Shown: positions 3,479 through 47,684 of the stretch, piece after piece
Numbering within the stretch: position 1 is the first letter of the stretch
How the letters are laid out: each line of letters begins with the position of its first letter
Assembly: GCA_903898675.1 (NCBI GenBank)
Contig: CAIUGM010000008.1
Span: forward strand, 1 to 64,000
Length of the DNA: 64,000 nucleotides
Source of the DNA: an uncultured Verrucomicrobiota bacterium
GTDB lineage: Bacteria; Verrucomicrobiota; Verrucomicrobiia; Opitutales; Opitutaceae
Direction: 5' to 3'
Position numbers and translations under genes: made by a program
Notes under the pieces: generated by a model
Database searches by the model: none
Told to the model about the DNA's origin: nothing
What the model saw: the letters and a program-made list of their open reading frames with translations, nothing else

Positions 3479-3952
3479 TTAGCGGCCCCCGCCCTCGATC
3501 GAACCCCGCTGCTTGGGCGTCACGGGCGAACCGGTCGCGGCGTCGACGAACCAAAAGTCACAATACGTGTTGTTGCCCAGCAACCCGACATCCGAGGCGA
3601 ACCTGAGGATGTAGTGGCCGCCGGGCGCCGCGTTCAACTCGAGGTAGGAATGGGAGACAAAATCACCGCGGCTCATCTGCACGTCGATGATGCGCGGCCC
3701 GGCCTCGACGAGGAGCGGCACGTTCCAGCCCTTTTTCCCGGCCATGACGACCTTGCCGTCAACCGAAAGCACAAACGCCGTCTGGTTGTGCGTGAGCGGA
3801 CTGGGCACTTCCGAGCCGGTGACGACGGCGGTATTGGGCCCGGGTTGCGGCGCGAAATACTGCAGCGAGGGCGGAACCCGCGGGTCGCCCGCGCAGCCGG
3901 CGAGCAGGGCAACGACCAGGGCACCCAGGGGCAGGAAATTTATTTTGATCAT
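3479..3952 (-). CDS. Hypothetical lipoprotein
   Basis: The 157-residue product starts MIKINFLPLGALVVALLAGCAG, a lipoprotein signal with lipobox LAGC, so the mature protein should be lipidated on Cys20. An upstream Met (to base 3967) would only lengthen the positively charged end. The mature part is beta-rich, with ILRFASDVGLLGNNTYCDF and a C-terminal region ending in SIEGGGR. No catalytic motif or named family is recognised. It lies 37 bases after menE on the same strand and may be cotranscribed, although nothing links it to quinone synthesis. Confidence 0.75.
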   Translation of the reverse strand: MIKINFLPLGALVVALLAGCAGDPRVPPSLQYFAPQPGPNTAVVTGSEVPSPLTHNQTAFVLSVDGKVVMAGKKGWNVPLLVEAGPRIIDVQMSRGDFVSHSYLELNAAPGGHYILRFASDVGLLGNNTYCDFWFVDAATGSPVTPKQRGSIEGGGR

Positions 3953-3989
3953 GGCGAGTCGGCGCATCGGTGGCTTGAGCAGGCTTTCG

Positions 3990-5237
3990 TCATTTCTTTT
4001 CGTGAAAGGTTCCGGCTTTCAACCCGGCCGCAGCGAGGCGGGCGACCTCGGCCCGGTTGACCTTGCCCTGGCTGTTCACCGGCCACGGTCCGAGCGGGAC
4101 AAAATATTTCGGCCGCTTGGCGGGAGCAAGCAGCCGTGCCATCGCGGCGCCGATCCCCGGCCAATCGGGCGAAGCGGTGTCGGGATACGCGGCCACGACC
4201 ACCTGGCCCCATTCCGCGTGGGGCAGGCCGACCACCACGACATCGGGCAACCCGGCGGTCCCGCGCAAGCCGGCCTCAACCTCGGCTGGATTGATTTTCT
4301 CCCCGCCGCTGATGATGACCGCATCGCGCCGGCCGCTGACCACCAACTGGTCGTGTTCGTCCACGCGCCCGATGTCGGCGGTCTCAAAAACACCCTCCGC
4401 CCGCCAGGCCGGATAGTAGCCGCGGAAAAGCGATTGCCCACCCAGGGAGATGACCCCTTCCCCGCTGAGGTGCAGCGTGGCATGCGGCAGCACCGTGCCG
4501 GAACTCCGTCCCCCGGACAAAAATTCCGCCGGGCGCGAGGCCACCGCCATCGCCGCCGACTCGGTCATGCCGTAACCCAGGGACAGCGGCAATTGCTCGG
4601 CAGCCGCGTTATCCAGCAGTTCCGGCCATGCCGGCCCGCCGCCCACAAATATGATCCGGAGTTTTTTCAGCCAGGCCACGGCCGCCGGACGGCGCAGCAG
4701 GCGTTCCAGCTGGGTCGGCACGAGGGAGATGGTCCACCCGTGGAGTTGGACGGGCAAATCCGGCAGCGCCCCGCCTTCGATTTCCTTCCACCCCAGCGGG
4801 CAATACTCGCCCCCGGTCAGCACGGTGCGGAGCCAGGCCATGAGTCCGCTGACATGATGCAGCGGCAGCAACCCCGCGGAGTTAACCTGCGGCAGTTCGA
4901 AGTGCCGTGCGAACCCGCGCACCGCGGCCGCAATGGTCGTGCTGTCATGCCGCGCAAAACGCAGCTGGCCGCTGGTCCCGCCGGTCGGGATCATGAGCCA
5001 GCCGGACCGATGGCCCGCAGGGCAAGGCGTCTGCAGCAAGGCGTCGAGTTGCGCCCGCTCGGTGGCGCCCCACTTCGGATCGCAGAGAAAAACATCCGCC
5101 TCGCCCGCGACGGCATGCGCGAACGCCGCCATGAACCGGCCGGGATCGGCCTCGGCGATCAGCACCGGCCCGGCCGACGCGGGCGCATCGTTGCTCCTCA
5201 GGTTGCGCAGTGCCTCGCTCAACTCAGCGCGTTCCAT
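3990..5237 (-). CDS. menE: o-Succinylbenzoate-CoA ligase-like AMP-binding enzyme
   Basis: This is a member of the ANL adenylating-enzyme superfamily. The P-loop-like motif is IPTGGTSGQLRFARH (family consensus TSGTTGxPK). Later motifs are GYGMTES, then VSGRRDAVIISGGEKINPAEVE (the hinge and C-terminal lid), and a C-terminal NSQGKVNRAE carrying the adenylation Lys. MenE activates o-succinylbenzoate to its CoA thioester in menaquinone synthesis. At 415 residues it is short but within the MenE range. It overlaps menC by 19 bases, which supports the assignment over a general acyl-CoA ligase. Other men genes are not in the window. Confidence 0.85.
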   Translation of the reverse strand: MERAELSEALRNLRSNDAPASAGPVLIAEADPGRFMAAFAHAVAGEADVFLCDPKWGATERAQLDALLQTPCPAGHRSGWLMIPTGGTSGQLRFARHDSTTIAAAVRGFARHFELPQVNSAGLLPLHHVSGLMAWLRTVLTGGEYCPLGWKEIEGGALPDLPVQLHGWTISLVPTQLERLLRRPAAVAWLKKLRIIFVGGGPAWPELLDNAAAEQLPLSLGYGMTESAAMAVASRPAEFLSGGRSSGTVLPHATLHLSGEGVISLGGQSLFRGYYPAWRAEGVFETADIGRVDEHDQLVVSGRRDAVIISGGEKINPAEVEAGLRGTAGLPDVVVVGLPHAEWGQVVVAAYPDTASPDWPGIGAAMARLLAPAKRPKYFVPLGPWPVNSQGKVNRAEVARLAAAGLKAGTFHEKK

Positions 5238-6379: not shown

Positions 6380-7960
6380 ATGGCAACGATGACCAAGCCT
6401 GTTGCCTCCTCCGCCAGCGATTCGGACTTCTATCTGCCTGCCGATCGCTTCTTCGCCGCCAACCTGCCTGTGGCCCTGACGTTTGACGACGTCTCCCTCG
6501 CCACGCTCCACTCGGAGATCCTGCCCAAGGACACCGATCTGGCCACGGCCCTCTCCGACAGTGTGCGGCTGCAGATCCCGATCATTTCCTCCGACATGGA
6601 CACGGTCACGGAATCGCGCATGGCGATCGCCATGGCCCTCAACGGCGGTCTCGGCCTGATCCATTACAACCTGCCGGCCGCCGACCAGATCAAGGAGGTC
6701 GCCCGCGTGAAACGGCACGTCCACGGGCTCATCCAGGACCCGATCACGGTTTCCCCCTCCGCCCTGATCAGCGAGGTCCTGCAGATGATCGATCAGAAGC
6801 GTTTCGACTTCCGCACCTTTCCCGTGGTGGATGAACAGGGCAAGCTCGCCGGTCTGCTTTCCGGCAACGTGGTCAAGGAGCGCTACAAGGCCAAGCGGGT
6901 CGCCGAGGTCATGACCCCGCGCCAGCAGCTCATCACCGTGCGGGAGAAAAACATGGCCGCCGACCCGATCAAGGAAGCCGACCGCTTCTTCTCGGAGCAT
7001 GTGGGCATCCACAAGGTTCTCGTGGTCGACGACAAGGACCACCTCCGCGGCCTCGTCACCATTTCCGATGTCGAACGGATCACCAGCGAATCGAAATCCC
7101 GCCGCAAGCCGGCCCGGGACTCGCAGTTCCGCCTGGTGGTCGGCGCCGCCATCTCCCCCGTGCGCAAGCCCAGTGGCGAACTGGACCGCGACAAGGTTAT
7201 CGCGCATGTGGGCGAACTGGTCGACGAAGCTGTCGATGTCGTCGCCGTCTCCACCGCGCACGGCCACACCGCCGGGGTCGGTGAGGTCGTGAAGCTGATC
7301 CGGAAGGCCTTTCCTGATCTCACGATCCTCGCCGGCAATGTCACCAGCGGCGCCGGCGTGGAGTTCCTGACCGAGTGCGGCGCCAATGCGATCAAGATCG
7401 GCCAGGGTCCCGGCTCAATCTGCACCACCCGCATCGTGGCGGGCGTCGGCATCCCGCAGCTGACGGCCCTGCACGTGGCCGGCCGCGGCGCCGCGAAGAA
7501 GGGCGTCAAACTGATCGCCGACGGCGGCATCACCAAGTCGGGCGATATCGTCAAGGCCCTGACACTTTCCGACGCCGTCATCCTCGGCGGCCTCCTGGCC
7601 GGCTGCCGCGAGGCGCCCGGCGAGATCATGGAAATTTCCGGCAAGCTCTACAAACAGTACCGCGGCATGGGCAGCCATGCGGCGATGAAGGCCGGTTCCG
7701 CCGCACGTTACGGCCACGACAAGAACGACACCTCCCGCAAGATTGCCGCCGAGGGCATCGAGGCGCTCAAGGAGGTTTCGGGTTCCGTCGACGACGTCCT
7801 CAGCAGCCTGATCGGCGGTGTGCAGAGCGGCATGGGTTACCTTGGAGCGAAGAACCTGGGTGAGCTCCGCACCAAGGCCCGGTATGTCCGCGTGACGTCC
7901 TCCGGCCAGAAAGAGGCCGCCCCGCACGATGTCATCGAGGTCGCCACCCGCAAGGGGTGA
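6380..7960 (+). CDS. guaB: Inosine-5'-monophosphate dehydrogenase
   Basis: IMP dehydrogenase oxidises IMP to XMP with NAD, the committed step to GMP. The 526-residue protein has LTFDDVSL near the start, [17 protein letters not shown] (conserved barrel motif), two CBS domains between about residues 110 and 240 ([14 protein letters not shown]), and the active-site loop [18 protein letters not shown] with the catalytic Cys. [10 protein letters not shown] and the flap follow. The frame is open far upstream (from 5735), but that part reads through the repeat and menC antisense, so the Met of MATMTKPV was chosen. The length is normal for a CBS-containing enzyme. Confidence 0.96.
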
Positions 7961-23674: not shown

Positions 23675-25096
23675 CTACTGGCCGGCCGCCGTCACGAACC
23701 GTGCGATGATGCCGTCGAACGATCCGTTGGTGAAAAAAACCACGAGCTGCGGCTGCGCCTGCGGTTTCATGACCACGGCGACGAGGGCGTTGAGCAGGTC
23801 ATCGTTCGTCAGAGCGGTGTGGGCGGTGACGCCCTGCATGCCGAGGTGCTGGATGACCGCCTCCACGTCGAAGCGCTCCTCCTCCTTCAGCTTGTCGGGG
23901 CGGCTGACCGCCCCGATGAAAACCTCGTCGGCCAGCGCCAGCGCCCGGGTGAACCCGGCCTGCAGCACCTTGGTGCGCGCCGTGTTGCTGCGGGGCTCGA
24001 ACACGGCGGTCAGCAGCGTGCCGGGATAGCGGTTGCGCAGCGAACGCAGCGTCTCGACGAGCGCGGTCGGGTGGTGGCCGAAATCCTCGATGACGCGGAG
24101 CCGCGGCGTGTCGACCAGCAGCTCCTGCCGGCGCTTGACCCCGCGGAAGCGCGCCAGGGCGTCGAGATTCAGCTTCGTCGGGTCGTCCGGATGCAGCGCG
24201 AGGCCGGCCGCCAGCGCGGCCATCGAGGCATTACGGGCATTGAAAATGCCCGGCTGGTTCCACCTCACCTCGCGCCAGACCTTGCCCTTCCAGTGCAGGT
24301 TGAAGGAAGCCTCGGATCTATTCTCGCGAAAGTTTGAAATCTTCAGGTCGTTGCCGTCACCGGTCCCCACCCGCACGACCCGCGTCCAGCCCAGCGGCCC
24401 GAGGGAGCGCAGGTTGTCGTCATCGCCGTTCAACACGATCCAGCCGTTGCGCGGCACGATCCGCGCCAGGTGCAGGAAGGTGCGCTGCACATCCGCGAGG
24501 TCGCGGAAGATATCCGCGTGGTCGAACTCCAGGTTGTTCAGCACCGCGATATGCGGCGCGTAGTGGATGAACTTGCTGCGCTTGTCGAAGAAGGCGCTGT
24601 CGTACTCGTCGCCTTCGATCACAAAGGGATCCTCCGGCGAACCGAGATGGTTGCCCACCGGCGGGTCGAGCGGCACGCCCCCGATCAGGAAACCCGGGTC
24701 GCGCCCGTTCTGCCGCAGCAAAAAGGCCGTGAGCGCCGTGGTGGTCGTCTTGCCGTGCGTGCCGGCGATCACCAGGTTGCGGCGGCCCTTGAGCACCTGC
24801 TCCGCCAGCAACGCCGGCAGCGAGGTGAACGGGAGGCTCCGCGTGTCGAGCAGCCACTCCACCTCGGGGTTGCCCCGGGACATCGCATTGCCGATCACCA
24901 CGAGGTCGGGCTTCAGCTGCTCCAGGCGGTCCGGGTCGTAGCCCTCGTGAAAGACAATGCCGGCCGAGGCGAGCACCGTGCTCATCGGCGGATAGACGCC
25001 CACGTCCGCGCCGAGCACCTCATGCCCGGCCGCGCGCGCCAACAGGGCCGCGTTGCCCATCGCCGTCCCGCCTATGCCCATGAAGTAAACCCTCAT
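23675..25096 (-). CDS. mpl: UDP-MurNAc:L-Ala-gamma-D-Glu-meso-DAP ligase
   Basis: Mpl attaches recycled tripeptide (L-Ala-gamma-D-Glu-mDAP) to UDP-MurNAc in peptidoglycan recycling. The 473-residue Mur ligase has GIGGTAMGNAALLARAAGHE at the N-terminus, AGTHGKTTTTALTAF (ATP P-loop), and NLEFDHADIF. VIEGDEYDSAFFDKRSKF is the Mpl-type version of the MurC motif. EDFGHHPTAL and FEPRSNTARTKV follow. The DEYDSAFFDKRSKF block and the length favour Mpl over MurC. It converges on rimO. Confidence 0.94.
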   Translation of the reverse strand: MRVYFMGIGGTAMGNAALLARAAGHEVLGADVGVYPPMSTVLASAGIVFHEGYDPDRLEQLKPDLVVIGNAMSRGNPEVEWLLDTRSLPFTSLPALLAEQVLKGRRNLVIAGTHGKTTTTALTAFLLRQNGRDPGFLIGGVPLDPPVGNHLGSPEDPFVIEGDEYDSAFFDKRSKFIHYAPHIAVLNNLEFDHADIFRDLADVQRTFLHLARIVPRNGWIVLNGDDDNLRSLGPLGWTRVVRVGTGDGNDLKISNFRENRSEASFNLHWKGKVWREVRWNQPGIFNARNASMAALAAGLALHPDDPTKLNLDALARFRGVKRRQELLVDTPRLRVIEDFGHHPTALVETLRSLRNRYPGTLLTAVFEPRSNTARTKVLQAGFTRALALADEVFIGAVSRPDKLKEEERFDVEAVIQHLGMQGVTAHTALTNDDLLNALVAVVMKPQAQPQLVVFFTNGSFDGIIARFVTAAGQ

Positions 25097-25299
25097 TTGT
25101 TGCTCAGCGGTTCCGAACGCTCACCACAGAGGGGAATCGTTACATGATGAGTTTCCCATGTTATGCCATAATTAGTCATTATTAAGCAGGTGCGGCATAA
25201 GAGAGATGAAATAGTTCGAAGTGAAATATTGGTGTAGATATTGCTCGCGAGTAGACCAGCAGGGCTGAAGCAGCCAACTACAAAAAATGAACGCTGACG
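25097..25299. other. Non-coding A+T-rich segment at the edge of the SIR2 island
   Basis: This stretch lies between mpl and the small SIR2-partner gene. It is visibly A+T-rich, with TTATGCC (about 25162) and GGCATAA (about 25195) as a 7-base inverted pair around AATTAGTCATTATTAAGC. No open frame of credible codon use is seen. It could hold the transcript end of the island or the junction left when it was acquired. Confidence 0.5.
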
Positions 25300-25824
25300 C
25301 TAATGAGCGATTGTGGCACAAAATCTGGCGAGCTTGAGAAGGTCTATTTCCGCCATCCTCCATCGCCTTTCAGGCGAAATGTGAGAAGGATGGTCTCGCG
25401 GATGACATTGCAAGACGGGAGCGTCGGCTACCTTAAGAGCATTGCCGTGTTCAAGAATGATCATCTTCCACTCGAGCTTCCTGGCATGTAGAATTTTATT
25501 GGCGGCCTCCCTGAATGTCAGCGGCTCCTCAACTCCCGATTCAAGAAAAAGCCGGCCGCAATCACGAACATTGGGGGCATTTCTCAAATATAACGTTAGA
25601 TTCTCCTCATCATCTACCATCCGAAGAAAGAGAGCCAATTCAACGCATGCTTTCTCGGCTCTTTCTGCGGAAAGAGCGTATAACGTTTTCTCCAAATAGA
25701 CCCATTCCCCCAAGAACTCCTTGCTCATCATTTCCGTAAGTGGCTTCAGTGAATACGCGTAGGTCATGATAATCGAAAGATTCTCGTGAACCAATCGGGG
25801 AAGCGGAATCAGAAAGTCACTCAT
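25300..25824 (-). CDS. Small helical protein of unknown function, partner of the SIR2 gene
   Basis: The 174-residue product starts MSDFLIPLPRLVHEN, 32 bases after the SIR2 stop on the same strand. A longer frame to 25914 would overlap the SIR2 end. It looks mainly helical, with alternating charged and hydrophobic residues (KPLTEMMSKEFLGEWVY, CVELALFLRMVDDEEN) and the segment FREAANKILHARKLEW. No signal peptide, membrane helix or named catalytic motif is seen. The base composition is as A+T-rich as the SIR2 gene (bases 25621-25680 hold 30 G/C of 60). The pair was probably acquired together. The role is unknown and could be antitoxin, sensor or effector subunit. Confidence 0.75.
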   Translation of the reverse strand: MSDFLIPLPRLVHENLSIIMTYAYSLKPLTEMMSKEFLGEWVYLEKTLYALSAERAEKACVELALFLRMVDDEENLTLYLRNAPNVRDCGRLFLESGVEEPLTFREAANKILHARKLEWKMIILEHGNALKVADAPVLQCHPRDHPSHISPERRWRMAEIDLLKLARFCATIAH

Positions 25825-25856
25825 TGGCGCGTGATGCTCGTTGGTGAGGACAGCTT

Positions 25857-27086
25857 TCAGACATCCTTCTGGATAAACTCTGCGAAGTCCTGGCGGAAGT
25901 CTGGAGCATTCCACCCCATCGAAGGGCAGGTGCCATCCCGCATTTGAACAATGCGCGCATATACGCTCCGTGGTGGTGCAGGCTCGCCACCGTCAAAATT
26001 ACGGTCGGTACCACCTAACACTATCTTCCCGCCCCGACCGGAGAATAAATACTTAAACCCCGGCATTAGGTACTCATGCATCGATAAGCCCACGAATGAA
26101 ATTCTATCCGCCACTTGAACCTCTTCGCGGGCACGCCCCCAAATTGCCTGAAATATTTCATGTGTGTCTGGATCGGTTGCCGCCCGGCCACCCGCTCGGA
26201 ATCCTTCCACCTGGTCGCTGTAGACCGGATCACGCAAAATAAATTCATTTTTCGCCAGCATCGTACCATTGTCGGCCATGATTTCCCAAGGGAAGACGAT
26301 TGGCACTTCGGACTCACCGAATTGTGCCGTGAGTGCTCTAAGTCGCTTCTCCAGATCGCCGGTGAAAAACTGATCAAATGAGACGTGCGGTGTTAGTGAG
26401 TACTGCGTGACATTTCTCGCGGGCAATGGCCATGCGGCAGAACCGTGCAATTTCAGAAGGCAAAAACTGTCACCTTCACGGATTGCTTTTACACCTTCCG
26501 TGCCGTGTCCCAATCCACTTAATACGGCAGCCTCAACTCGAGGATCCAGAGGGGCGCCACGAACGCCGCCCGCCAATGCTCCGGCTCGAATGGAAAGCCC
26601 CCGCTGAAGTAGCCATTCAAGATACGGATCGTAGTTGAAAGACATCACCACAACGTCACTGCGTAAGGCGGAGAGTTTTTTTGGATCGAATAATTTTTGA
26701 ATGAATGGATAGTAATCTGAGTCGGTGAATTGCTCCTCAGGGCTATGAATCCCAAATACAAATCGGAGAACAAACTTAAGATCCGAAGCCATCTTGCTCT
26801 CTGTACCGCGTAGCAAATAGCAAAACTCATCAATCGTACCAAAACCGCCTTCCCTAAAGAGCTGGAGTGGCACTCGATATTTCTCAATCCAGCGCTCAAA
26901 TTCCTCTAGTATCCAGTTTTGCCTCGGTTCCACAGTTAGTCCTAGGCCCATCGCCCTCTTAAACCGAACTCTTAAACCGTCTGCCGACGCTAGCCATTCC
27001 CTCCGCAGGTCGTCGGCCATGGGATAGCCCGAAGACGCCGAAGCGCCAGCGCCCAAAAAGATGACGTGCTTGGGTGTTTTGCTCAT
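25857..27086 (-). CDS. SIR2-like domain protein, probable NADase of a defence module
   Basis: The 409-residue protein has the SIR2_2-type fold. HVIFLGAGASASSGYPMA (about residues 8-24) is the NAD-binding Gly-rich loop. FNYDPYLEW (N151, D153) and LLKLHGSAAWP (H214) carry the Asn and His that act in SIR2 NADases such as ThsA. FVGLSMHEYLM further on is the usual second Rossmann motif. No other recognised domain is attached. The gene is clearly A+T-rich against flanks (26221-26280 hold 27 G/C of 60, against 41 of 60 at 24001-24060), suggesting transfer. Such proteins deplete NAD after phage sensing. That role is inferred from the family. Confidence 0.88.
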   Translation of the reverse strand: MSKTPKHVIFLGAGASASSGYPMADDLRREWLASADGLRVRFKRAMGLGLTVEPRQNWILEEFERWIEKYRVPLQLFREGGFGTIDEFCYLLRGTESKMASDLKFVLRFVFGIHSPEEQFTDSDYYPFIQKLFDPKKLSALRSDVVVMSFNYDPYLEWLLQRGLSIRAGALAGGVRGAPLDPRVEAAVLSGLGHGTEGVKAIREGDSFCLLKLHGSAAWPLPARNVTQYSLTPHVSFDQFFTGDLEKRLRALTAQFGESEVPIVFPWEIMADNGTMLAKNEFILRDPVYSDQVEGFRAGGRAATDPDTHEIFQAIWGRAREEVQVADRISFVGLSMHEYLMPGFKYLFSGRGGKIVLGGTDRNFDGGEPAPPRSVYARIVQMRDGTCPSMGWNAPDFRQDFAEFIQKDV

Positions 27087-27235
27087 TGAACGTCTGTAGA
27101 ACCAAACATCTAGATTGGCCTAGTGGCCATCCCATTTTCCGTACTGGCCCGCGCAATCACGTCACCTGGCTCCACTCTGGCCGGTGGCTATCGTCGGCAA
27201 TTGACGCCCCAGACCATCGCCGACAGAAACACCAC

Positions 27236-27649
27236 ATGCAAGGCACCAGCGCAGTTTCCGACTTCCTGCAGATTGGCGGCGGATTTGCCGTCTTATTCGT
27301 TCTCGCCGTCCTAGTCGTCAACGCGGTCCTCTGGCTGTTCCTGCCGTGGGTCATGCTGAACAAGATGAACAAAATGATCGAACGCCTGCGCTATATCGAG
27401 ACCGCAGCGGAATCGATCGCCCGCAATACGCGACCATCCGACCCGGGCCCTGCGTTCAATGCGGCATCGCTGCCACCAATTCCGGGCAAGGAGCTTTATT
27501 TCGTGTCCGATGGAGAAAAGCCGGTCGGGCCACACTCGTTGGAAACACTGCGCGGCCTTCTTGGAAGAGGCGTGATAAACGCCAACACGCCTGTTTTTCG
27601 CCAAGGGGACGCGGCGTGGAAGACTCTCGACGCTGTGATCCAGAGCTAA
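27236..27649 (+). CDS. Membrane-anchored GYF_2-domain protein
   Basis: The 137-residue protein has an N-terminal membrane helix (GGGFAVLFVLAVLVVNAVLW). A short coiled segment follows (NKMNKMIERLRYIETAA). The C-terminal GYF_2 domain reads YFVSDGEKPVGPHSLETLRG, ending FRQGDAAWKTL. GYF_2 domains in bacteria are found on membrane proteins and probably bind proline-rich or other peptides. The Met of MQGTSAVSD was chosen, because the upstream open frame lacks typical codon use. It is divergent from the SIR2 gene. Confidence 0.8.
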   Translation: MQGTSAVSDFLQIGGGFAVLFVLAVLVVNAVLWLFLPWVMLNKMNKMIERLRYIETAAESIARNTRPSDPGPAFNAASLPPIPGKELYFVSDGEKPVGPHSLETLRGLLGRGVINANTPVFRQGDAAWKTLDAVIQS

Positions 27650-27774
27650 AAAACCCCGCCGGTTCTGACGTGGTTAAGAACGTAAAGTTGTGCCAAGGAT
27701 TCTCGAATTTTTGCGGTCCACGCCATTGACGAACGCGCTGCGATTCGCGCGTCTTCCCGGAATCAATACACGCC

Positions 27775-29976
27775 TCACGGCGCGCCGACCACGACCATTT
27801 GCAGCGTCCGCCCGGCGGGCACCGTCCACTGGCCCTCGCTGCTGGTCGTGAGCTGGAGCTTTCCATCCACCCGGGTTACCCAGAACGTCGTCAGGCGGTA
27901 CTCCCCGCGCTGGTAGCCGAAACCATCACCAGCGTCCTCATAAAGCGTGCCACTGGCCTCGCCCTGGGCGTCCAGACAGACCAGCAGCGTGACTTCCTTG
28001 AGCGGTTGCTCATCGACGTACTGCATCACGGGACCGGTGGGGATGATCGCCCCGGGCCGGACATACAGGTCGGGCAGGTTAGGGTCGTCCGCCTCCCCCG
28101 CAAACTTGAACGGCCGCCAGCCTTGCGGCAGCCCGGGCGGGTGCTCCCGTCCGGGCGTTACCCGGCAGGCGATCAGCAGTGAGTCCCCGAGCAGAAACGC
28201 CCGGTCCTCCGCGCGCAGCGCCAGGTTCCTGGGCTCGGCAAAAAAGACCGGTCGGGCCACCGGCAGGCCGGTGACGGATGCTTCGCGAAACACCGTGTAG
28301 AGGTAAGGCATCAACCGGTAGCGTCGCTCCAGCGCCGCCCGGCAGGTCTGCTCCACGGCCGGACCGAAGGCCCAGGGTTCCTTGGCCAGGTTCTCCTTGC
28401 TGGTGTGGCCGCGCGCGAAGGGCAGCAACGAGCCAATCCCCATCCAGCGCGCAAACAGGGTCCCGCGATCAAACGGCGGGCCGCCCTCGGGGCCGTTGCC
28501 GATGAACCCGCCGATGTCCGGCCCGGCGTTCGGCTGACCCGACAGGCCGAGGTTGAGGATCATCGGGATGGACCAGGCAAGTTGACCCCATTCCGCGGTG
28601 TTGTCACCGGTCCACATGGCCCCGTAGCGCTGGCCGCCCAGAAAGTTGGCCCGCGACAGCACAAACGGGCGGCGGTCGGGCCGGGCCGCCAGCAGGCCTT
28701 CGCGCGTGGCCCGGATCATCTGCATGCCAAAGACATTGTGGTAGCGCGCGTGTGTGCCCTCGCCGCCCAGCTCCGCATCGGCGCGGTGCACGTTTTCCTC
28801 GGGCATGGTCTTCGTCGGCACCTGGAAAACCGCCGGTTCGTTCATGTCGTTCCAGACCCCGTCCACGCCCTGCGCCAGGTACGGACCATAGAGCGAGGCC
28901 CACCACGCGCGAACGTCCGCCCGGGTGAAATCGGGAAAATAGCACAAGCCCGGCCAGACTTCCCCCTCGTAGTCCGAGCCGTCGGGGCGCCGGACATAAA
29001 AACCCTCGCGCCCGCCGGCTTCCCGCAGCGCCCTGAAATTCGCCTGCACCGCCGCCCTGGCCTGCGCCAGCTCCGGGGCATCCGGTCCGGGGCCCGCGGG
29101 CGCCGGCGGCACCTTGCTCGGCTCGTCCCGGCTCTTCACGCCGGGATCAATCATCCACACCGTATGAAAACCCTGGGCGTGCAGGTCGCGGTTGAGCTGC
29201 GCCGGATCGGGAAACCGGCCCGGATCGAAGGTGAAAATCCGGAAGTCCTCCATGTAATCGATGTCGAACCAAAGCGTGTCGCACGGGATGCGCCGCGCCC
29301 GGAATTCCCGGGCGATCTCGCGCGCCCGCGTGTCGGGCGCATAACTGTAGCGGCACTGGTGGTAGCCCAGCGACCACTTCGGCGGCAGCGGCATGTGGCC
29401 GGTCAGGTCGGCCAGCACCTTCAGCACCTCCGGCGGGGAATCCCGCTCGATGACGATGACCGGCGGTGGCGGTCCATCGGCGTCATCCTCGATGACACCG
29501 CCGGCCATCGTCGGCAGTGAAATCACCTGCCGGTACGTGGAGTCGAAAATAACCCCGAACGCCGAGCCGTCCGGCCGGACGCCCAGCACCCAGGGATGTG
29601 ACTGGTAGAGACTCTGCGACGCATGGTCGTACTTGTAGGCGTCGTTGTTCCAGAGCGTCACCATGCGGCCGTTGCGCTGCAGGGGACCCGTGACCTCCCC
29701 GGTGCCGTACAAACTCGTGCCCGCCTTGATGAACAGCGTCACCACGTGTTTTCCACCGCTGAAAGTAAAGGTGGGCCACAGGTTCACCCCGCCATCACCC
29801 GCCGGGCCGTGCCGCGGCACGACCAGCGCGATCGAGGGCAGCGCCGCCAGTTTCGACTCGTCCGTGGCATGAAACACCGCGATGCCCGGCCCGAGCGTCT
29901 CGGCCACCTGCGCCCCCGCAATCGTGGCGAGGGCAAGGGCGAGTGACAGGACAAAACCGGTTGGGCGTCGGATCAT
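27775..29976 (-). CDS. Exported GH31 family alpha-glucosidase / alpha-xylosidase-like enzyme
   Basis: The 733-residue protein has a Sec signal (MIRRPTGFVLSLALALATIA). A GH31 N-terminal beta domain includes LYGTGEVTGPLQRNG. The catalytic barrel has GVWNDMNEPAVF with the nucleophile Asp, and MWTGDNTAEWGQLAWSIP with the acid/base Asp in GDN. PFARGHTSKE and YRLMPYLYTVF are typical of alpha-glucosidases. A C-terminal beta domain follows (ITPG-type loop, DAGDGFGYQRGEYRL). It would act in the periplasm or outside on alpha-linked glucans. The exact linkage cannot be told. Confidence 0.94.
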   Translation of the reverse strand: MIRRPTGFVLSLALALATIAGAQVAETLGPGIAVFHATDESKLAALPSIALVVPRHGPAGDGGVNLWPTFTFSGGKHVVTLFIKAGTSLYGTGEVTGPLQRNGRMVTLWNNDAYKYDHASQSLYQSHPWVLGVRPDGSAFGVIFDSTYRQVISLPTMAGGVIEDDADGPPPPVIVIERDSPPEVLKVLADLTGHMPLPPKWSLGYHQCRYSYAPDTRAREIAREFRARRIPCDTLWFDIDYMEDFRIFTFDPGRFPDPAQLNRDLHAQGFHTVWMIDPGVKSRDEPSKVPPAPAGPGPDAPELAQARAAVQANFRALREAGGREGFYVRRPDGSDYEGEVWPGLCYFPDFTRADVRAWWASLYGPYLAQGVDGVWNDMNEPAVFQVPTKTMPEENVHRADAELGGEGTHARYHNVFGMQMIRATREGLLAARPDRRPFVLSRANFLGGQRYGAMWTGDNTAEWGQLAWSIPMILNLGLSGQPNAGPDIGGFIGNGPEGGPPFDRGTLFARWMGIGSLLPFARGHTSKENLAKEPWAFGPAVEQTCRAALERRYRLMPYLYTVFREASVTGLPVARPVFFAEPRNLALRAEDRAFLLGDSLLIACRVTPGREHPPGLPQGWRPFKFAGEADDPNLPDLYVRPGAIIPTGPVMQYVDEQPLKEVTLLVCLDAQGEASGTLYEDAGDGFGYQRGEYRLTTFWVTRVDGKLQLTTSSEGQWTVPAGRTLQMVVVGAP

Positions 29977-30078
29977 GGCAGGGTGGCGAAAAATAAATGA
30001 TTCCCATCAAGGCCTAACCCCGGCCCAGGAAGGGTGCAACCCCGCAAGGGTTCCGCTCCGGCAATCCGATTCGTATGT

Positions 30079-30150
30079 GTAGGGGCGCAGTCTTGCTGCG
30101 CCCTCGAACATGTTATCACCCCGAAGGGCGCAGCAAGTCTGCGCCCCTAC
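30079..30150. repeat. Palindromic repeat, GTAGGGGCGCAG family, copy 1
   Basis: Two 25-base arms (30079-30103 and 30126-30150) are reverse complements with one mismatch, flanking a 22-base loop. The arm core is GTAGGGGCGCAGTCTTGCTG. It lies between the GH31 start and the end of priA. Copies 2 and 3 are at 36609 and 37725. Confidence 0.92.
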
Positions 30151-30160
30151 CTTGATTTGC

Positions 30161-43917: not shown

Positions 43918-45909
43918 TCAGGCTTGAGCCTCGGGCTTGGGCTCCTCGGCCGGAGCCGCTTCAGGGGCCGGCGTGGTTTCCGGTACGGGAGTCGATTCAA
44001 CCACGGGTTCAGCCGGGGCGGCTTCCGCCACGGTTGGTTCAGCCGGGGTCGAAGCCGTGACCGCAACCGGCGCAGCCGCCGGGGCATCGGGGAAATCAAC
44101 CGGGTCGTGCTCTTCATCGCCGGCCTCGGCGCGCTTGGCGGCTTGCGGCGCCATCGGCGGCGGCGCGAACAGCTTCCCGTCGGAGAACTCGGTCACGTAA
44201 CCTTCCATGACCAGCCAGCGGAGATCGTTGCCCATCTTGCGCAGCTTCTCGGCTTGCTCGGGCGTGAGAACGATCACGGGAGCCGGCGGCGTGCCTTCCG
44301 GCAGCGGGACGGCCGGGGCGGCGGGTGCCACCTCGATGCCCAGAAAATTCTTCGGCAGATCCTTCACGTGGATCATCGGGCTCTTCTCGATGAAATCGAT
44401 CAGGGCCGCGATCGTCTCGGAGAACACCTGACCCGGCACCCGGAAGCGGCGCTTGACGGCGCAGACGTAGGAAACACCGCGGGAACCCTTCTTGAAGATC
44501 GTGAAACCCTCGCGACGCAGCCGGCCGCGCAGGGCGTTGGCCGTGTCGAGCGGGAACCGGCGCTGGCGTTCCACGTGGCCCTCAAGGGCGCGGCGGATTT
44601 CACCTTGCGGGAGCTTCTCGATGAGCTTGCCGTGGAAACGGACATTCTCGACCGCACGGACCACTTTGTCGCGGGCATTGGCCAGCAAATACAGGCGGGC
44701 GTCCTCGATGCTGTCAAAGGACAGGGCCTCGGGCGCGGCCGGGACCGGCACCTCAGCAGCAGCCGGGGCCGTCACTTCTGCGACTGGCACGGGAGCATCA
44801 ACCGGGGCGGCCGGAGTCTCGGCCACCGGCGCCTCGGCCGGCTTCGCCTCGGCGGCGACGGATTCAAAGGGAGGAATGGTACCAGACTTGGGCGCCACCG
44901 GTTTCCAGGTGTAGCGCGTGGCCTTCTTCATTTTCTCCAGCCACTGGGCCGCGACCTCGGGCTCGCGCACCGAGACGATGCTCTCGCGGAAGCGCTCGAA
45001 CGGCATGCGGCTGAGCTTGGCGGCGTGGTGCTGCTGGAGGATCTGCTGGTAGCGGTGGTAATTCGGCGGCCCGAGGAGCTCACCGGTGATGCCACACTTG
45101 TTGATGATGGGGAAATTGCCCTTGGGCGGCTCGATCTCGACTTCCTGGGTATCAAAGAAAGCCCCGAGGTTGTTGCCGAGCACGTGCTGGATCGCCGCCT
45201 CCTCCGTATCGAACGGGAGGTGGTCGGGCAGCGACATATAAAGCGGGCTGGCTTTCGCCGGCACGGGCGCGGGCCGGCCCGCCGCCGCCTCGCCCTCGGC
45301 GGGCGTATTCTCCGCCGGGAAGTCGGGCCGCGCGGGCTTGGCGCGCTGCAGCACGATCACAAACCGGTCGTTTTTCTCGAGCACGGCCTTGGTGATTTCG
45401 AAAAGCTGATAGGTGCGGCAGGAAGCGCGCACGGCTTTGACCATCGCGGCAAAGCCGGTGTCCTCCGGATAGCAGGTCGCGACAAAATACGGGCTCATGT
45501 ACGGCGCGCGGTCAAACTGCTGGCCGCCACCCTCGCGGCGCTCGCCCCCACCCCCGCCGCGGAAATCACGGCGCGGACCGCCCGGGCCGCGATCAAAACG
45601 GCCGCGGTCACCCGCCGGCGGACGCTCACCTTGCGGCTGCGGCTGGCCTTGGGCCCCTGGCGCGGACGGCGCTGCTCCCGGCCCGGCCGGCTTGTGGAAC
45701 GTCCGGCGATCACGCTGGGCCGGACCACGGTTGCCGCCGTCATCGCGACGCTCGCGACGGTCACCGCGATCGAAATCGCGCCGGCCGCCGGGGGAGACGG
45801 GTTTTACCTCGGTCCACTGGGTCCCGAAGTTAAAGCTCTGCAACTGGCTCAGGTCGATTTTGTTCAATCCTGAGTCGTTGGTTTCGTTGGCGGTCTTATT
45901 GTCGTCCAT
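43918..45909 (-). CDS. Large protein with RG-rich disordered N-terminus and EAPA-rich tail
   Basis: The 663-residue protein starts MDDNKTANETNDSGLNK. A disordered region rich in Arg, Gly and Asp follows (GGRRDFDRGDRRERRD, GPGGPRRDFRGGGGG), as in RNA-binding RGG segments. A folded central part has YFVATCYPEDTGFAAMVKAV and GNFPIINKCGITGELLGPP. A second folded part is in the C-terminal half (RRALEGHVERQRRFPLD, FRVPGQVFSETIAALI). The last about 70 residues are Ala/Pro/Glu repeats. It may bind RNA or ribosomes. No family is named. The first frame Met (to 46035) lies upstream in unlikely sequence. Confidence 0.75.
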   Translation of the reverse strand: MDDNKTANETNDSGLNKIDLSQLQSFNFGTQWTEVKPVSPGGRRDFDRGDRRERRDDGGNRGPAQRDRRTFHKPAGPGAAPSAPGAQGQPQPQGERPPAGDRGRFDRGPGGPRRDFRGGGGGERREGGGQQFDRAPYMSPYFVATCYPEDTGFAAMVKAVRASCRTYQLFEITKAVLEKNDRFVIVLQRAKPARPDFPAENTPAEGEAAAGRPAPVPAKASPLYMSLPDHLPFDTEEAAIQHVLGNNLGAFFDTQEVEIEPPKGNFPIINKCGITGELLGPPNYHRYQQILQQHHAAKLSRMPFERFRESIVSVREPEVAAQWLEKMKKATRYTWKPVAPKSGTIPPFESVAAEAKPAEAPVAETPAAPVDAPVPVAEVTAPAAAEVPVPAAPEALSFDSIEDARLYLLANARDKVVRAVENVRFHGKLIEKLPQGEIRRALEGHVERQRRFPLDTANALRGRLRREGFTIFKKGSRGVSYVCAVKRRFRVPGQVFSETIAALIDFIEKSPMIHVKDLPKNFLGIEVAPAAPAVPLPEGTPPAPVIVLTPEQAEKLRKMGNDLRWLVMEGYVTEFSDGKLFAPPPMAPQAAKRAEAGDEEHDPVDFPDAPAAAPVAVTASTPAEPTVAEAAPAEPVVESTPVPETTPAPEAAPAEEPKPEAQA

Positions 45910-46043
45910 GAATGGGCGGGAAACGGGCGTGGCTACCCGGTATGAGTCGATTGATTGCTGGGTGTTCCGCGACACTTGGTCGGGCGCGCGGTAAAGACGC
46001 AGTGTCCAAAGAATAAAACCACGAAGCAAGCGCATTTCGGGGC

Positions 46044-46073
46044 TTTACAAGCCCCGTCGGATTTACCTATGTC
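46044..46073 (+). promoter_or_regulatory. Candidate promoter of the tRNA-Leu gene
   Basis: TTTACA at 46044-46049 and TATGTC at 46068-46073 are 18 bases apart and end 21 bases before the mature tRNA. Spacing fits a sigma-70 promoter. Confidence 0.4.
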
Positions 46074-46094
46074 AGCCCTTCCAAGGTTGGAAAT

Positions 46095-46179
46095 GCTCGG
46101 GTGGTGGAATTGGTAGACACACACGTTTGAGGTGCGTGTGCCGTAAGGCGTGCAGGTTCGAGTCCTGTCCCGAGCACCA
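46095..46179 (+). tRNA. tRNA-Leu (anticodon GAG)
   Basis: The acceptor 5' strand is GCTCGGG and the 3' strand is CCCGAGC, followed by discriminator A and an encoded CCA. The D arm GTGGAATTGGTAGACAC is typical of class II tRNAs. The anticodon arm is CACGT-TTGAGGT-GCGTG, placing GAG in the loop. A long variable arm (TGCCGTAAGGCGT) and T arm GCAGG-TTCGAGT-CCTGT complete it. It reads Leu codons CUC and CUU. Confidence 0.97.
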
Positions 46180-46180
46180 G

Positions 46181-46293
46181 CCTTCGCCAGGCCTACGGCT
46201 GGCAGTCCAGTCCCAGTTAGAGGGCAAGCGTTGGGCACACTTTCGATCATCGATTACCAAGGCGAAAGCTGCCGTCCATAGGCTTGGCGAAGG
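46181..46293. repeat. Inverted repeat directly after the tRNA-Leu CCA end
   Basis: CCTTCGCCAGGCCTA at 46181-46195 and TAGGCTTGGCGAAGG at 46279-46293 are reverse complements with one mismatch. The left copy starts two bases after the CCA. The enclosed 83 bases contain no credible gene. A GIY-YIG gene follows at 46438. Confidence 0.75.
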
Positions 46294-46437
46294 ACGGCTT
46301 TCACTTCCGCCACAGCTGGAATACGCTCCTGCAACCTAGATTAAGGCTGGCAGGCCCAATTGACACAATGAGGGACGACGCGAAAGCTGCGCGTTGCTGA
46401 CGGTATTTCCTCACGAAGACTTCATCTCATAGTTGCG

Positions 46438-46716
46438 ATGACCTATGTCTACCTCATCGAGAGCGCCAGCCTGAGGCAGCAGCATTACGCGGGAATTACT
46501 CGAAACTTAAAGCTGCGGCTGACTCACCACAACGAAGGCAAATCGCCCCATACGCGTAGATTCAAACCGTGGAACCTAGTCACGTATGTAGGATTTGCCG
46601 ACGAACTAGCCGCACTTGCCTTCGAGAAATACCTCAAAACCGGATCGGGAAAAACCTTTCTGAAAAGGCATTTCCTAAGACCTACGCGCAGCCCTATGAC
46701 TCTCCCCCGCCCCTAA
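46438..46716 (+). CDS. GIY-YIG nuclease superfamily small protein
   Basis: The 92-residue protein has the GIY-YIG core in variant form: YVYLIESASLRQQHYAGIT, then NLKLRLTHHNEGKSPHTRRF and a C-terminal FEKYLKTGSGKTFLKRH. In the family the first GIY and second YIG Tyr are the active-site residues, and here the motifs read VYL and YAGI. The overall layout matches the small YhbQ/UPF0213-type GIY-YIG proteins. It follows an inverted repeat immediately after a tRNA gene, and its A+T content is somewhat higher than its neighbours'. It may be part of a small mobile element. Confidence 0.8.
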   Translation: MTYVYLIESASLRQQHYAGITRNLKLRLTHHNEGKSPHTRRFKPWNLVTYVGFADELAALAFEKYLKTGSGKTFLKRHFLRPTRSPMTLPRP

Positions 46717-46766
46717 CACGTTTGACCGCGGCACATTTCTGAAGAAGGTAGGCGCCGTTAAGCCCC

Positions 46767-47684
46767 ATGAAATCCGACGCCATCAAACAGGCCCTGCTCG
46801 AATCCTATGCCCGCGATGGCGGCATCAACCACCTGGATGGCGTCAACCTGCCGGCCCAGGACGTGGTCAGCGAGCTCGCCCGCGACTTCATGCATGTGCT
46901 GTTTCCCGGGTATTTCCAGCAGACCGGGCTGGCCCGGAACGATGTGCCCGCCTGGCTCGACGGCCTGCTCGCCAAGATCGACCAGCGCCTGACCACCGAG
47001 ATCGAGAAGAGCCTGCGCTTCGCCAAGGATGCCGAGCCGACGGCCAATGCCCGCCGCATCGCCAACGACCTGCTGGCGCAACTGCCGGAAATCCGCCGCA
47101 TCGTGCAGACGGACGTCACCGCCGCCTTCACCGGCGATCCCGCCGCGCGCAGCGTCGAGGAGATCATCGTCGCCTACCCGTGCGTCCTGGCCATCTCCCT
47201 GCAACGCATCGCCCACGTGCTCTACCGGCTCGGCGTGCCCTTGCTGCCGCGCATGCTCACCGAGTACGGGCATGAGCGCACCGGCGTCGACATCCATCCC
47301 GGGGCCCGGATCGGCACGCACTTCTTCATCGACCACTGCGCGGGCGTCGTCATCGGCGAGACGGCCACCATCGGCAACCATGTGAAACTTTACCAGGGCG
47401 TGACGCTCGGGGCCAAATCGTTCGAGGTCGACAACGCCGGCAACCCGGTGAAAGGCGTGAAGCGCCACCCGGCCATCGGGGATCACGTCACGATCTACGC
47501 CCACGCCACCATCCTGGGCGGCGACACCGTCATCGGTTCGAACTCGGTCATCGGCGGCAATGTCTGGCTGCTAAAATCCATCGCGCCGAACAGCATCGCG
47601 TACTACAAGAGCGACGACCTCGTCATCCGCGCGCGCGAGAAGAAGGAAGCAATGGTCGAGGACGCAGGTGACTGGATGATCTAG
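46767..47684 (+). CDS. cysE: Serine O-acetyltransferase
   Basis: CysE makes O-acetylserine from serine and acetyl-CoA, the step before cysteine. The 305-residue protein has a long helical N-terminal part. A left-handed beta-helix of hexapeptide repeats follows: GVDIHPGARIGTHFFIDHCA then GVVIGETATIGNHVKLYQGV, with the catalytic His in DHCAG. RHPAIGDHVTIYAHATILGG and a C-terminal tail after SIAYYK complete it. The helical N-terminus and length match the longer EpsC-type forms. It is alone on its strand, after the GIY-YIG gene. Confidence 0.95.
   Translation: MKSDAIKQALLESYARDGGINHLDGVNLPAQDVVSELARDFMHVLFPGYFQQTGLARNDVPAWLDGLLAKIDQRLTTEIEKSLRFAKDAEPTANARRIANDLLAQLPEIRRIVQTDVTAAFTGDPAARSVEEIIVAYPCVLAISLQRIAHVLYRLGVPLLPRMLTEYGHERTGVDIHPGARIGTHFFIDHCAGVVIGETATIGNHVKLYQGVTLGAKSFEVDNAGNPVKGVKRHPAIGDHVTIYAHATILGGDTVIGSNSVIGGNVWLLKSIAPNSIAYYKSDDLVIRAREKKEAMVEDAGDWMI

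Follow-up and report, generated by a model that had tools for sequence, protein, structure and literature searches.

A horizontally acquired SIR2-family gene and a small neighbouring gene between mpl and priA in an uncultured Opitutaceae bacterium

Two closely spaced genes in an uncultured Verrucomicrobiota bacterium (Opitutaceae; GenBank assembly GCA_903898675.1), one of the SIR2 family and one small, raise the question of whether they act together as an anti-phage defence module or are neighbours by chance. The window, meaning the whole stretch of DNA analysed, comprises the first 64,000 nucleotides of contig CAIUGM010000008.1. A sequence-only reading of it had singled out the pair as a transferred, A+T-rich island and a candidate for an undescribed two-gene defence system. 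The features of the locus are listed below; the names mpl, priA and alpha-glucosidase were assigned by reading the sequences.

25857-27086, minus strand: SIR2-family gene (protein P0001), 409 aa, with GAGAS at residues 12-16, N151 (in FNYD) and H214 (in LHG); linked to Pfam SIR2_2 through relatives
25300-25824, minus strand: small gene (protein P0002), 174 aa, of an unnamed family that is often borne by mobile elements; motifs LRMVDD, REAANKILHA and W-x2-AEID
25097-27235, no strand: A+T-rich segment containing the SIR2 gene, the small gene and non-coding ends
25097-30160, no strand: insert of ~5 kb that separates mpl from priA, with SIR2, small, GYF_2 and alpha-glucosidase-like genes
27236-27649, plus strand: GYF_2 gene (protein P0003), with a Pfam match to GYF_2
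27775-29976, minus strand: alpha-glucosidase-like gene

Composition and acquisition of the locus

Both open reading frames (ORFs) were recovered where the earlier reading had placed them, on the same strand and separated by 32 bases (25825-25856); an alternative upstream GTG at 25914 would give a small protein of 204 aa overlapping the SIR2 gene. The A+T-rich patch has 48-52% G+C. In 500-base windows, the G+C content is 0.49-0.53 for the eight that start at 25000-26750, passes through transitional values of 0.57-0.58, and is 0.59-0.72 for those starting at or before 24750 and at or after 27500; the non-coding ends of the A+T-rich segment contain 45% (25097-25299) and 57% (27087-27235) G+C. Third-position G+C is 0.52 in the SIR2 gene and 0.53 in the small gene, 0.69 in the GYF_2 gene, and 0.84-0.91 in manC, rimO, mpl, agl and priA. 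Searches for flanking repeats produced nothing beyond weak 20-base pairs (75%), with no visible attachment site, and scans for promoters and terminators found fewer sites than the mean of shuffles. Elsewhere in the window, a second A+T-richer stretch (45751-47000; 0.55-0.57 G+C) surrounds a tRNA-Leu(gag) gene at 46095-46179.

The mpl protein was matched in 21/21 same-genus genomes (the match in genome G013 is weak, with E 4.3e-4 and 29% identity, and is probably another ligase), and the DNA upstream of mpl was read in 12 of the 20 other genomes. In eight of these 12 loci (L050, L052, L053, L054, L056, L058, L060 and L061), the two genes directly adjoin each other, the priA match ending 17-702 bases from where the mpl match begins; on the L058 contig, priA is represented by its final 50 residues alone. 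The remaining four show other genes at the junction (L051, L055, L059) or a contig end (L057). The distance between the two genes in the window is 5,064 bases, and none of the four proteins encoded in the insert (SIR2, small, GYF_2 and alpha-glucosidase-like) was matched in the DNA read at the 12 loci. Since mpl and priA are adjacent in 8/12 same-genus loci, the segment in the window is an insertion. The foreign composition and the empty site together support horizontal acquisition of the segment with the SIR2 gene and the small gene, in line with the transfer that had been proposed from composition.

The SIR2 lineage and its neighbours

The GAG-S nucleotide loop, the Asn of NYD and the His of LHG are the motifs of SIR2-like NADases, and all three are present in 6/6 aligned rows of relatives. 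GAGAS, Asn151 and His214, described as intact from the window alone, are invariant in this alignment, except that A15 is C in two rows. The 409-residue protein contains no recognised sensor domain. It matches no Pfam family up to E 1, and so lies below the SIR2_2 gathering cut-off, and it has no match in PHROGs or in the plasmid and phage collections; viral-contig scans with the protein and with its two-row profile (A1) confirmed nothing. Against PADLOC, it matches the general SIR2 profile (E 8.7e-4) and Aga_SIR2 (E 0.0047), both over only ~22-24 N-terminal residues. A sequence search of the PDB returned nothing up to E 10 for the SIR2 and small proteins or for profiles A1 and A7, and 16 rows for profile A3, the best (E 0.013) being an 869-residue SIR2-like chain. 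The structure model of the SIR2 protein (pLDDT 41.7, from a two-row alignment) is too poor to use, and of the 30 rows from a Foldseek search with it, none reached E 0.001.

Relatives of this protein are rare. Across 384 genomes of the class there were two matches, the window's own and a 35-residue remnant at 69% identity in a same-genus genome (G003; L003 1501-1605), where it follows an nrdA-like gene (named by reading) and precedes an unrelated 471-aa ORF on the opposite strand. A scan of genome contigs added one relative at 35% identity, cut by the contig end (G709; L004). Profile A1 found members in 2/387 genomes of the phylum and 2/21 of the genus (the same two), and in 4/293 genomes of the order of G709 (G709, G719, G772 and G987). 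A four-row profile (A2) matched 7/245 genomes and added G777, G810, G812 and G929 (E 2.8e-9 to 4.0e-5); G987 is outside these seven, and the sample of 245 may not include it. The G929 protein (L022; E 2.4e-7 with A2) passes the Pfam SIR2_2 cut-off (32.2 versus 24.5 bits), with L021, L023 and L011 falling below it; the lineage is thereby tied to SIR2_2, although the window's protein alone goes unmatched. The best PADLOC match of relatives L011 (E 2.1e-9) and L012 (E 7.1e-6) is Aga_SIR2, and the L004 and L011 proteins had no match in the plasmid collection.

The genes found next to these relatives differ from genome to genome. In G719 (L011 7614-10658), the SIR2 gene is followed on the same strand by a DUF6602 gene, which matches the PADLOC PD_DExK and NucC profiles, and by an unknown 268-aa gene; further on lie a 172-aa ORF that is transposase-like by eye and TOTE primase and ResIII genes. 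In G777 (L023 4518-9985), the gene of a distant SIR2 relative shares 4 bases with the end of a SACS/NOV_C gene of 1467 aa, whose match to PADLOC TmtA (which we take to be the Tiamat protein) has E 6.3e-104; the two are a possible SIR2-TmtA pair. A literature search under the protein name TmtA found no paper, nor did narrow searches on SIR2 and Thoeris defence in Verrucomicrobia and on SIR2 with DUF6602. A convergent HNH gene lies beside the SIR2 gene of G772, where the contig starts 593 bases past the SIR2 stop. The G987 gene is split over two frames, lacks the His segment, and has no same-strand partner, being followed on the other strand by a glycosyltransferase-like gene (named by reading), and G810 retains only a 245-residue open piece. 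In G929, the first SIR2 piece of L022 is an open frame without its N-terminal part, and a second SIR2-profile piece (3776-4069; E 5.5e-8) lies on the opposite strand ~0.8 kb after it. The lineage shows no conserved partner: its members stand alone or beside varied genes, and several are decayed. These changing neighbours suggest that the effector is often re-paired.

The small family and its occurrence apart from SIR2

Direct searches with the small protein recovered little. It matched only itself in 95 near genomes, nothing in Pfam or PADLOC up to E 1 or in PHROGs, and one chance-like NCBIfam row (E 0.21); no match was obtained in G709 and G003 up to E 10, in phages at E 1, or in plasmids at E 0.1, where relaxing the threshold to E 10 gave seven chance-like records. 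Among 245 genomes of the order of G719, G797 carries a relative at 46% identity (residues 2-171, E 4.2e-36), so the small gene is not a chance ORF. The G797 copy has one internal stop, and its first start is 13 bases from a tRNA-Leu gene. At E 0.1, weak rows appeared in 12/245 and 17/278 genomes, with only G797 and the window's own below E 0.001. The ORFs were read in seven of the matching loci, and L062, L064 and L065 were kept; L066, L067, L071 and L076 were rejected as small-family loci, with no family ORF seen, and the other weak rows with loci had no match in family profile scans. L064 (G772) and L065 (G874) encode whole proteins of 177 and 173 aa with the same layout as the window's protein. 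L065 in turn led to a protein on a plasmid of Burkholderia contaminans and to a piece at the start of a Cupriavidus plasmid record; plasmid relatives were reached only via the distant kin L065 and L081, and L064 gave none. Alignment A6 led to two viral contigs with a family member (2/11 stretches confirmed), and viral-contig scans with the small protein itself and with A5 confirmed nothing.

A profile of L064, L065 and L081, built without the window's protein, recovers it at E 1.7e-9, the best of 999 shuffles among the 1000 sequences scoring 0.35. The family thus defined comprises proteins of ~175 residues with the motif REA[CA]NK[IV]xH, has no Pfam or NCBIfam name, and conserves A64, R68, D72, G90, L102, R105, E106, A107, N109, K110, H113 and W155 in 6/6 rows. 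Its seven other members are spread over three genomes of G709's order (Verrucomicrobiales), two plasmids from Burkholderiaceae and a pair of viral contigs. The protein had been described as having no recognised family, which stands as far as a name is concerned and needs amending in that it belongs to a family dispersed over genomes, plasmids and viral contigs. HEPN-type helical domains have the motif R-x4-6-H; the spacing of R105 and H113 differs from this, as R-x7-H, and the model (pLDDT 39.4, no relatives in the alignment), mainly helical, is too poor to use.

The contexts of the family are dispersed and often mobile. In L084, the family gene is directly preceded by an integrase-type gene and directly followed by a portal gene; in G772 (L064), an integrase is upstream; on the L081 plasmid, PAAR, VRR-NUC and type VI immunity genes are upstream; and on the L083 viral contig, an AIPR gene is upstream and a DUF2514 gene downstream on the other strand. 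The G797 gene (L062) sits beside a tRNA, that of L065 stands alone before a gatC-like gene (named by reading) with no mobile gene seen, and L082 is too short for its context to be read. In L089 (G772), two similar short tyrosine-recombinase-like genes (32-628 and 6410-7060, the second confirmed by Pfam) lie ~6 kb apart; they are accompanied by cargo genes, among them the small-family gene, and a possible coupling-protein gene is nearby.

A scan of 7101 ORFs from 91 sequences (the window and overlapping loci included) with a profile for each family found the two in one locus nowhere except at the window's own place. Nine other genomes carry the SIR2 lineage (one as a remnant, some broken), and downstream DNA could be read for eight of them, of which seven have a gene and one the remnant (593 bases in G772 and >4 kb in the others); a small-family gene accompanied SIR2 in 0/8 loci, including those of G812 and G929. 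In the reverse direction, this SIR2 type was near 0/7 of the other small-family members, in 6-12 kb each. A genome-wide search with A6, in which G797 and G874 were matched as positive controls, found the small family in one of the nine SIR2 genomes, G772, with the small gene on contig C352 and SIR2 on C4. These counts come from several fragmented assemblies and several decayed SIR2 relatives. The three-row family profile misses the broken G797 copy (L062, L088), so the scan negatives are not absolute, and because the sole relative of at least 40% identity is broken, a narrow SIR2-paired subfamily may be missed. As the two genes were not found together elsewhere, their pairing is probably a chance neighbourhood, and the proposal of a two-gene defence module, which was to be refuted if the small gene did not travel with SIR2, is not supported by the sequences searched.

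Known SIR2 systems and readings of the locus

No named system in PADLOC 2023 fits the locus, in agreement with the earlier reading, to which no matching partner was known. DSR1 and DSR2 proteins are long and have their own C-terminal sensor half; the likeness to them is that of a SIR2 effector of abortive infection, but the window's SIR2, at 409 aa, lacks such a half. The TIR-domain partner of Thoeris is absent, the small protein matching nothing in Pfam or PADLOC up to E 1. The likeness to SPARSA lies in the Aga_SIR2 matches of L011 and L012, whereas the window's protein matches this profile weakly and no short Argonaute or APAZ protein is present among P0001-P0003 (the sole pAgo row covers residues 3-31 of the SIR2 protein at E 0.096). 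PHROG 18838, of unknown function, is matched at E up to 1 by 5/6 small-family members (best 0.0027), the exception being the window's protein. According to a review, SIR2 domains occur in Thoeris, SPARSA, DSR1, DSR2, Sir2-HerA, Avast type V and PD-T7-2 and act via NAD+ depletion (PMC10952713). In Vibrio Nezha (SIR2-HerA), protection is lost when the active-site Asn or His is mutated, and SIR2 needs HerA (PMC11559045). The window's locus resembles Nezha in its SIR2-type protein with conserved Asn and His and its two genes, but its partner is a 174-aa protein and not a HerA ATPase, nor is HerA found among the neighbours (the small protein lacks a Pfam match, P0003 is GYF_2, and the neighbour on the other side is mpl by reading).

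Taken together, we think it reasonably likely that the locus holds a stand-alone SIR2 NADase of a rare lineage, acquired and lying beside an independently mobile cargo gene. The SIR2 gene would encode an NAD+ hydrolase of the sirtuin type, whose lineage is akin to Pfam SIR2_2 and whose chemistry is extrapolated from that of other SIR2 defence systems (PMC10952713, PMC11559045). It is probably a defence gene, most likely an anti-phage effector that would lower NAD+ when triggered and so stop the infection, and it entered the mpl-priA junction by horizontal acquisition. The 174-aa gene would be independently mobile cargo, co-located and perhaps co-transcribed, and presumably not an obligate partner. 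The invariance of the catalytic Asn and His (6/6), the defence-type contexts of G719 and G777, the differing or decayed loci of G772, G987 and G003, the absence of each family from the other's loci (0/8 and 0/7), and the foreign composition and empty site favour this reading. On the other side, the common strand, the 32-base gap and the near-equal third-position G+C fit a single co-acquired transcription unit, a SIR2 protein without a visible sensor may need a partner as Nezha SIR2 needs HerA (PMC11559045), and some small-family members adjoin effector-like genes (AIPR in L083, VRR-NUC in L081). The same observations speak for a true two-gene module, transferred whole as an operon, in which the small helical protein would serve as the infection sensor or hold the NADase in check; with the pair unseen elsewhere and the one shared genome carrying the genes on different contigs, such a module is unlikely. 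Since the SIR2 lineage changes neighbours, the two proteins may nevertheless cooperate at the window's locus alone.

Two other explanations are less probable still. The SIR2 protein could act with a partner whose gene lies at another place in the genome, the effector having been split from its sensor; its relatives do adjoin possible partners (DUF6602 in G719, the TmtA-like protein in G777), and we give this arrangement a slim chance. The protein could instead be a house-keeping or metabolic NAD-using enzyme, or inactive cargo, as might be suspected from the extrapolated nature of the defence role and from the decay of relatives (the G003 remnant, the broken G987 gene). The very sparse distribution (2/21 genomes of the genus, counting the window's own and the one with the 35-residue remnant) and the defence-type contexts of two relatives argue against house-keeping, and this too appears improbable.

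The locus adds a rare SIR2 lineage, with apparently changing neighbours, that is poorly covered by four profile libraries (Pfam, NCBIfam, PADLOC and PHROGs), and it illustrates that two acquired genes are not proved to be a module by close spacing and a similarly unusual composition alone. An apparent orphan small protein is now linked to an unnamed family that phages and plasmids carry. There is an outside chance that the REA[CA]NK[IV]xH family consists of small mobile accessory proteins serving as a shared sensor or restraint for SIR2, AIPR and VRR-NUC effectors; if so, the SIR2 locus would exemplify a control module that is widespread and exchangeable.
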